NCBI GenBank assembly: GCA_013043165.1
Contig: JABDOQ010000100.1
Location: forward strand, 1 to 64,000
Direction: 5' to 3'
DNA: 64,000 nt
DNA from: Woeseiaceae bacterium
GTDB lineage: Bacteria > Pseudomonadota > Gammaproteobacteria > Steroidobacterales > Woeseiaceae
This document shows, piece by piece, positions 13,323-16,263 of the stretch (its first letter is position 1; every line of letters starts with the position of its first letter). Below the pieces are notes generated by a model. That model ran no database searches. It saw only the letters and a program-made list of their open reading frames with translations, and had not been told where the DNA came from. The translations under genes and the position numbers were made by a program.

Positions 13323-15176
13323 ATGAGTAAGGGCAATTTGATCCGCCGTATGCTGGCATCGATATGGCGCGGCCTCAACGGACTGCGAAAAGTGCTCCAC
13401 CTGGTACTGATGCTGTTCATTTTCCTGGTGTTTTTCGGCGCTATGTCGGGTACGCCGCCATTGATGCCAAACAAGGCGGCGTTGTTCATTCAACCGTCCG
13501 GCGTGCTTGTAGAGCAGCTGGAAGGTGATCCATTCGACCGCGCGCTGACCGAACTGGTTGGCGATACGCCGCCGCAGACGTTGGTACAGGATGTCATTGA
13601 TGCACTGGAGTTCGCCCGGACCGACGAACGCATCACGGCCGTTCATCTCGAGCTGAGCGTTTTCGCTTCGGGCGGGCTAAACAAATTGCAGCGCGTAGCA
13701 GACGCGATCGATGCCTTCCGGGAGTCGGGAAAACCGGTCGTTGCAAGCGCAGACTATTTTGCACAACAGGGTTACTACCTGGCGGCACACGCCGACGAGC
13801 TGTATCTTCACCCCGACGGCCTGGTGTTTCTGCAGGGTTTCGGATCCTATCGAACCTACTTCAAGGAGGCGATAGACCTGCTGCGAATCGACTGGAATGT
13901 TTTCAGAGTCGGGACCCACAAGTCGTTCGTCGAACCCTACACACGCATGGATATGTCTGCGGAGGACCGGGAGTCCAGGAACCGCTTGATAAATCAATTC
14001 TGGAGCACCTACCAGCAAGACGTAGTTGCTGCGCGCGGGCTGCCTGAAGGCGCCATTGACGACTACGCCCAGAACATGGTTGAGCGTGTCGGAAGCGCCA
14101 ATGGCGATACGGCCGTTGCTGCACGTGACATCGGTTTGGTGGATGATTTACTGACCCGCAATGGCTTGCGCGACCGTATCAAGGAATACGCAGGAGCGGA
14201 TTCGGAGGACGAGACGCTGTACTCGTCAGTGTCGATGCGGGATTACCTCAGTCAAATGCGGCTGTTGCATAAGCCCAGGAAGAAGGCTGAAAACGTTGCG
14301 ATCGTCGTCGCAGCGGGCGAGATACTCGATGGATCGCATCCACCAGGCACTGTTGGCGGCGATTCGACGGCAGCCTTGCTTCGTAAAGCCCGGAACGATG
14401 AGTCTGTCAAAGCCGTCGTGCTTCGCGTCGACAGTCCGGGTGGCAGCGCGTTTGCGTCAGAAGTGATTGCGAACGAGATAGAAGCTTTGCAGGCGGCCGG
14501 CAAACCCGTTGTTGCGTCCATGAGCAGCGTGGCGGCTTCTGGTGGCTACTGGATTTCTGTCGGCGCTGACAGGGTAATCGCCAGCCCGTCGACAGTAACA
14601 GGATCAATCGGTGTCTTCGGCATGATTCCTACCTTCCAGCGCTCGCTTGCGACTGTCGGCGTGGCAACTGATGGTGTCGCCACAACCCCGTGGGTGGGGG
14701 CGCTGCGAGTCGATCGTGAAATGACCGATACTTCGAAACAGCTGGTGCAGATGCTGATCGAAAACATATACGACGATTTTGTTGCACGGGTCTCTGAGCT
14801 CCGCGGCCTCGACGAGCAAACCGTGGACAGCATAGGCCAGGGTCAGGTCTGGACTGGCGCCGATGCGTTGCAGAATGGACTGGTCGATCAGCTTGGCGAT
14901 TTCGATGACGCTGTTACCGTTGCGGCAGAACTCGGTGGCCTCGAGGAAGGAGCTTACAGCAGGAAAACGATCCAGCCGGAGTTATCGCCGACCGAGCAGA
15001 TGATTGTCGATTTTCTGGCGGTTGCGAAAACCGCTGGTGTCGATCCGGCCAGCTTTGTGCGAGACCCGGCGCCGGTCGCGGTATTCGCAAATCAGCTGCA
15101 GAAATTGCTCTCGGCTGTCACGAAGTTCAATGATCCCAGGGGCGTTTATTCGCACTGTTTCTGCGAGATCGACTAG
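13323..15176 (+). CDS. sppA: Signal peptide peptidase SppA, long (67K) form
   Basis: VVLRVDSPGGSAFASEVIANEI; MSSVAASGGYWISVGADRVIASPSTVTGSIGVFG. Confidence 0.96.
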   Translation: MSKGNLIRRMLASIWRGLNGLRKVLHLVLMLFIFLVFFGAMSGTPPLMPNKAALFIQPSGVLVEQLEGDPFDRALTELVGDTPPQTLVQDVIDALEFARTDERITAVHLELSVFASGGLNKLQRVADAIDAFRESGKPVVASADYFAQQGYYLAAHADELYLHPDGLVFLQGFGSYRTYFKEAIDLLRIDWNVFRVGTHKSFVEPYTRMDMSAEDRESRNRLINQFWSTYQQDVVAARGLPEGAIDDYAQNMVERVGSANGDTAVAARDIGLVDDLLTRNGLRDRIKEYAGADSEDETLYSSVSMRDYLSQMRLLHKPRKKAENVAIVVAAGEILDGSHPPGTVGGDSTAALLRKARNDESVKAVVLRVDSPGGSAFASEVIANEIEALQAAGKPVVASMSSVAASGGYWISVGADRVIASPSTVTGSIGVFGMIPTFQRSLATVGVATDGVATTPWVGALRVDREMTDTSKQLVQMLIENIYDDFVARVSELRGLDEQTVDSIGQGQVWTGADALQNGLVDQLGDFDDAVTVAAELGGLEEGAYSRKTIQPELSPTEQMIVDFLAVAKTAGVDPASFVRDPAPVAVFANQLQKLLSAVTKFNDPRGVYSHCFCEID

Positions 15177-15180
15177 CTGG

Positions 15181-15234
15181 ATGGGGACATTCTTAATTTA
15201 ACGTATTAATACGTTAAATTAAGAATGTCCCCAT
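15181..15234. repeat. Perfect 54-bp palindrome between convergent sppA and tdh
   Basis: ATGGGGACATTCTTAATTTAACGTATT|AATACGTTAAATTAAGAATGTCCCCAT; 27-nt arms identical, no loop. Confidence 0.95.
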
Positions 15235-16263
15235 TTATTTGTTCCAGTGCAGGATGACCTTGCCCGTCTGTCCGGACTCCATAAGTTCGAACGCGGGCTG
15301 GAACTCCTCGATATCAAAATGGTGGGTGATGATCGGATCCATGTTCAGGCCGCTTTGCAGCATGCTGGACATCTTGTACCAGGTTTCGAACATCTCGCGA
15401 CCATAGATCCCCTTGATGAACAGCCCCTTGAAAATGACGTCATTCCAGTTGATGGCCGTTTCGCCGGGCGGAATGCCGAGCATGGCGATCTTGCCGCCGT
15501 GGTGCATCGTTCTCAGCATGTCGCGAAACGCCTGCGGATTGCCCGACATCTCCATGCCGACATCAAAACCTTCTTCCATCCCCAGGTCGCGCATGGTGTC
15601 GTCGATCGTCTGCCGGGTCACGTTGAGTGCGCGCGAGGCTCCCATTTTTCGGGCAAGCTCCAGCCGATAATCGTTAACGTCGGTAATGACGATGTGGCGT
15701 GCGCCTGCGAAGCGTGCAATCGCGACGGCCATGACACCGATCGGGCCGGCACCCGTAATCAGAACGTCCTCCCCCACAAGGTCGAACGATAATGCCGTAT
15801 GCGTGGCGTTACCGAGCGGGTCGAGAATCGATGCCATGTCATCGCTGATCATATCCGGCAGTTTGAAAACATTAAATGCCGGGACCGACACGAATTCCGC
15901 AAAAGCGCCTGGCCTGCTGACTCCGACACCGACTGCGTTCATGCACAGGTGACGGCGGCCGGCCCGACAATTTCGACAGTGCCCACAGGTTATATGCCCC
16001 TCAGCCGAGACGCGGTCGCCCAGGCTAAAGCCACGGACCTCGATGCCCATATCCACGATCTCGCCGCTGAATTCGTGCCCAACCGCCATTGGAACGGGGA
16101 TCGTTTTTCGCGCCCAGTCATCCCATTTAAAAATGTGAATATCGGTTCCGCATATCGCCGTGCGTTTGACCTTGACCAGGACGTCGTTGTGGCCAACATC
16201 GGGAACTGCGATGTCTTCCATCCAGATGCCAGGCTCCCGTTTTGCTTTGACCAGTGCTTTCAT
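15235..16263 (-). CDS. tdh: L-threonine 3-dehydrogenase
   Basis: [33 protein letters not shown]; zinc ADH fold; adjacent kbl. Confidence 0.96.

Follow-up and report, generated by a model that had tools for sequence, protein, structure and literature searches.

A loop-free palindrome between sppA and tdh in a Woeseiaceae bacterium as a solo copy of a repeat family probably dispersed by a TIRYT-type transposase

Introduction

The closest described relatives of the repeat reported here are the TIRtrons or TIRYTs, in which a Y1 transposase gene lies between terminal inverted repeats (TIRs) of the form GGGGWSAS that are unrelated to GTAG (Di Nocera et al. 2013, PMC3733652). These TIRs also form dispersed families, some of them self-complementary or double palindromic (PMC3733652). 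The family we describe likewise brackets a Y1 transposase gene and is scattered between genes without a GTAG tag, but each TIR is here a near-perfect, loop-free 50-bp dimer, and all dispersed copies are full dimers. REPINs (Bertels and Rainey 2011, PMC3116915) are similar in being dispersed, extragenic inverted doublets that form hairpins and have a cognate RAYT, whereas our repeat has TIRYT-type TIRs, no spacer between its arms and ~27 copies rather than hundreds. With the REP/REPtron systems of E. coli and Stenotrophomonas, in which one REP class is perfectly palindromic (Corneloup et al. 2021, PMC8266576), it shares the pairing of a HuH/Tyr TnpAREP enzyme with a cognate palindrome; it differs in lacking the GTAG tag, in its symmetric ends and in having a transposase of another subclass. 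Finally, the IS200/IS605 elements have the same transposase fold, palindromic ends and, presumably, the same single-strand chemistry, although the RAYT studied here is single-copy of its type and the dispersed unit carries no gene.

No RAYT group is larger than subclass 2.1 of TnpAY1 (RAYT group 1), around whose genes the main survey of these proteins reported no REP-like sequences (Quentin et al. 2018, PMC6006769). What is of interest in the present family is its loop-free symmetry and its fixed dimer unit, found with a transposase of that subclass. A literature search for the string GGGGACA gave no relevant match.

A perfect palindrome in a convergent gene gap

The window is the whole 64,000-nucleotide stretch of DNA that was analysed, and the features under study are collected in the table below. 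A first-pass annotation of the sequence had pointed to a 54-bp palindrome with 27-nt arms, without mismatch or loop, and the stretch indeed equals its own reverse complement at 54/54 bases. Its placement was also given correctly, with the palindrome reaching from 4 bp past the end of sppA to the edge of the tdh stop triplet, as the gene ends at 15176 and 15235 confirm. The next gene after tdh is kbl by NCBIfam naming. The second-longest perfect palindrome of the window has 10-bp arms (20 bp in all), and the number of palindromes with 27-bp arms expected by chance at the window's base composition is ~6e-12, which bears out the annotation's view that a random origin is very unlikely. Rfam models searched over the window matched an SRP RNA and a tRNA and nothing else.

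Table. Positions in the window of the palindrome, its parts and the two flanking genes
Feature	Position	Strand	Remarks
Solo family copy, a perfect palindrome without a loop	15181..15234	.	Equals its own reverse complement
50-bp family core, GGGGACATTCTTAATTTAACGTATT / AATACGTTAAATTAAGAATGTCCCC	15183..15232	.	Common to 25 other copies in the genome
GGGACATTC	15184..15192	+	Mirror at 15223-15231; unvarying in the 26 fifty-bp copies (52 arms)
T-rich tail, TTATTTGT	15235..15242	+	Could make a hairpin terminator for sppA only
sppA, signal peptide peptidase, upstream convergent gene	13323..15176	+	NCBIfam SppA, TIGR00705
tdh, L-threonine 3-dehydrogenase, convergent	15235..16263	-	NCBIfam TIGR00692; stop codon abuts the palindrome

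A dispersed family of inverted dimers

The source genome (G000, 3.19 Mb, with contigs given as C numbers) was searched by patterns and stretches. The arm GGGGACATTCTTAATT has 60 matches in it at two or fewer mismatches, and the reversed-pattern control has none. Twenty-six pairs at one fixed spacing, which defines the 50-bp core and includes the window copy, account for 52 of these matches; a single 58-bp version at C61:6036 takes up two more and a degenerate pair on C34 another two, and the last four come from different GGGGACA families, on C96 and C100. The family thus totals ~27 copies, 26 with the 50-bp core and one of 58 bp, so that the palindrome is not the single-copy sequence that the first-pass annotation had said would favour a simple terminator. 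Lone arms of the family were not seen among the 60 matches, every copy being a full inverted pair, and the dispersed unit is therefore an inverted dimer. The core of the window copy has no difference from those of the C81 and C95 copies, and this identity suggests that the family has spread recently.

The arms start with GGGGACATTC and contain no GTAG. The ends of the repeat read GGGGACAT, which fits GGGGWSAS at seven of eight positions (the last is T where C or G is expected), and relatives with GGGGACAG match it throughout. The repeat probably belongs to the GGGGWSAS terminal-inverted-repeat branch of RAYTs, and it is not a GTAG-tagged REP. Within the family, the two arms of one copy are more alike than shuffled arms (P = 0.0006 with all copies counted, 0.02 with distinct ones only), and 5 of 23 base pairs have changes on both sides, a number equally high in 6 of 500 shuffles.

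The GGGACATTC segment is unvarying across the 52 arms, whereas the middle of the arm varies, although this invariance is partly due to the way in which the copies were found. Such strong constraint might be expected of a protein-binding site, for example a nucleoid or a replication and segregation motif, that was spread by selection and is linked with the RAYT only by coincidence. We give this explanation almost no weight, given that the sequence of the repeat tracks the RAYT clade and that the family is present in only 12 of the 198 genomes searched. Each of the 26 fifty-bp copies has stop codons in three frames on both strands, but so do 38% of random palindromes with matching composition, and we do not claim selection for translational stops.

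A transposase gene bracketed by the palindrome

The genome has two Y1_Tnp genes, at C91 and C99. The C91 gene (G000:C91:6439-7104, minus strand, 221 aa) has one copy of the palindrome on each side, the transposase flank that the first-pass annotation had proposed to look for. The two copies stand in inverted orientation, trivially, as a palindrome reads alike both ways, and the TAA stop of the gene lies inside the downstream copy (GGA CAT TCT TAA). The protein matches Pfam Y1_Tnp (3.4e-12) and, as its best relative of solved structure by phmmer, the E. coli TnpAREP in complex with a REP hairpin (4er8, 1.7e-7); 4er8 is also the best PDB match by fold to its AlphaFold model (pLDDT 90). The HuH histidines H60/H62 and the tyrosine Y120 are unvarying in 40 homologues. 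Its motifs (NHFH 59-62, WQ 99-100, YVERNP 120-125) and length fit TnpAY1 subclass 2.1 or RAYT group 1 (NH[FY]H, W[EQ] and Y..NP type; ~238 aa), a placement made by motifs and length. For a C-terminal HTH there was no Pfam match even at E 10; the model has confident C-terminal helices at 175-187, 194-203 and 207-210 that are HTH-like by eye only. Among plasmid records, RAYT relatives are all distant, at below 60% identity (24-38% in the rows listed).

With its RAYT gene between two palindromes, the C91 locus is laid out like an insertion sequence of 0.8 kb, and each solo palindrome might in principle be a passive scar of a whole TIR-RAYT-TIR element that once occupied the site. We consider this very unlikely. 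Against only one RAYT of the C91 type in the genome stand ~25 near-identical solo copies of fixed length, no RAYT debris was seen at these copies, and the scar reading needs an exact deletion each time, so that dispersal of a REPIN-like dimer is simpler.

The second RAYT, at C99 (L057 1531-1983, minus strand), lies between GTAG-type REPs, GTAGGAGCGCGCCCCAGCGCGC on one side and the inverse on the other, and it forms with them a separate, canonical system. The window has no significant copy of the GTAGGAGCGCGCCCCAGCGCGC GTAG-type REP.

Repeats and transposases that vary together

In many phyla, homologues of the C91 RAYT lie between inverted repeats that start with GGGGACA, the null for inverted repeats around distant RAYTs being conservative because the same TIR occurs at different loci. 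Whether TTC or GGC follows GGGGACA requires one change on the RAYT tree, where shuffles require ~13 and none of 500 was as low. Within the genus of the window, the RAYTs of G023, G028, G043 and G055 carry GGGGACATTCTG(C/G)TTTTT. The sister TIR GGGGACATTCTGCTTTTT, at one mismatch or fewer, has 30+29 matches in G023, 15+12 in G028, 7+7 in G043 and 20+17 in G055, and none in the source genome. It peaks in G023, G055 and G028, whose RAYTs bear GGGGACATTCTGCTTTTT or a one-base variant. Some genomes, such as G013 and G044, also have GGGGACATTCTGCTTTTT though no RAYT of this kind was found in them, so the strong association is not an exclusive one. Overall, related RAYTs carry related repeats.

Genomic placement and the terminator question

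Stop codons are a preferred neighbourhood of the family. By a rough gene model, 13 of 27 copies overlap a stop codon or lie within 10 bp of one, where ~9% would be expected for random intergenic positions (P ~2e-7, or 1e-4 without the overlapping copies), in agreement with the description of REPs by Di Nocera et al. (PMC3733652). The same model called both neighbours for 19 copies, and 8 of these are placed between converging genes. Predicted reading frames enter the palindrome and have their stop codons inside it at C54:20095, C111:96971 and C111:111449, as does the RAYT gene.

This placement raises the question of whether the palindrome is a terminator of sppA and tdh that is kept for its function, with its repetition reflecting reuse of a good terminator. 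The palindrome forms a hairpin of high stability (-42.6 kcal/mol, z -11) and folds very stably on either strand, the sppA direction has its T-rich tail, the gap has no other content, and the share of copies between converging genes would suit such a role. However, the tdh direction has no U-tract, at least five T in eight are found in only 10 of 52 tails across the family, several copies adjoin a separate terminator-like hairpin (C61:3359, C72:27564), the gap contains no hairpin in most relatives that have this gene pair, and two of the copies flank a transposase gene. We thus regard this explanation as unlikely. The bidirectional terminator offered by the first-pass annotation is weak on the same grounds, with a U-rich tail on the sppA side only, tails that are not conserved in the family and a site that is empty in relatives. 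Termination of sppA is plausible as a by-product of the repeat, but not as the cause of its presence.

Filled and empty sites in sister species

The sppA-tdh gap is empty in the two closest sisters, where the matched flanks, 84-91% identical, are separated by 5 bp (ACCCC) in G036 and by 15 bp in G009. The conservation in every relative that, by the first-pass annotation, would favour a simple terminator is therefore absent. Against a late entry of the palindrome, CCCCAT beside tdh in the G036 gap could be a trace left by loss and not ancestral. In two other species the sppA-tdh gap contains hairpins of other kinds, one of GGGGACATTCTG type in G023 and a third type, GAGTGACAGTGACCTTAATT, in G003, each from a family dispersed in its own genome.

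Other sites of the family vary in the same manner. At C61:6036, G036 has a copy and G009 an empty site; C107:22716 is likewise empty in G009, while the sites at C54, C72:23815, C72:101218, C97, C107:19124 and C111:96971 are common with a sister. Given both shared and filled or empty sites, copies last long and also come or go. It counts against dispersal by a RAYT that G009 and G036 have 8-13 copies of the family, but no close RAYT was found in these drafts (93% and 76% complete), in which it may be lost or unassembled.

Proposed origin and movement

We conclude that the palindrome is, very probably, a solo non-autonomous copy of a family dispersed by the TIRYT-type RAYT at C91. The first-pass annotation had suspected a REPIN-like element tied to a Y1/RAYT transposase, and the dimer build, the ~27 copies, the empty site in the closest sisters and the RAYT flanks largely uphold its reading, which is refined in that the TIRs are closest to the GGGGWSAS (TIRYT) type and not GTAG. 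The repeat is REPIN-like in build without being a strict REPIN.

The unit is an inverted dimer of the transposase terminal repeat GGGGACATTCTTAATTTA, fused without a loop, so that either strand can fold to a hairpin of 25-27 bp. The HuH/Tyr transposase might bind this hairpin while the region is single-stranded, as it would be on the lagging-strand template, then read the conserved GGGACATTC foot and cut. We propose that the cut unit is joined elsewhere without target duplication, at junctions that are blurred at 80-90% identity. Copies survive mostly just past stop codons. The sppA-tdh interval would be a safe gap between converging genes, and the window copy presumably entered it after the lineage had parted from its sequenced sisters. 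The case for mobility rests on the comparison of species; movement by the C91 RAYT, a single-strand route and the polarity of each site are inferred.

A more general possibility, which we find slightly short of probable, is that TIRYTs (RAYT group 1) in Woeseiaceae-type Gammaproteobacteria run a REPIN-like system of their own, in which a loop-free, symmetric TIR dimer is mobile, co-evolves with each RAYT and homes to gene ends, three such families in three species having hit the sppA-tdh gap. In several species of the genus a RAYT can be recognised together with a cognate palindrome particular to that species, and filled sites are clearly told from empty ones, and thus both repeat-transposase specificity and dispersal are directly testable. 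A symmetric substrate without a GTAG tag also poses the question of how the enzyme chooses the strand and the end to cut.

Other repeats and segments

Several further repeats were seen in the genome. At C100:1610-1790 (L056 about 610-800), another GGGGACATTCCTGATTACTGCCCC repeat occurs three times in direct tandem and once inverted. On C112 of the source genome (L053 601, 4128 and 7695), three palindromes ~3.5 kb apart have a common 3' flank, AAGTGCCC, which perhaps represents a shared target or a longer unit. Nearby, L053 7492-7556 is another repeat of ~65 bp, with many copies in G036. Finally, a ~680-bp segment that includes the C61:3359 palindrome (L038 about 584-1263) is missing from both sister genomes.
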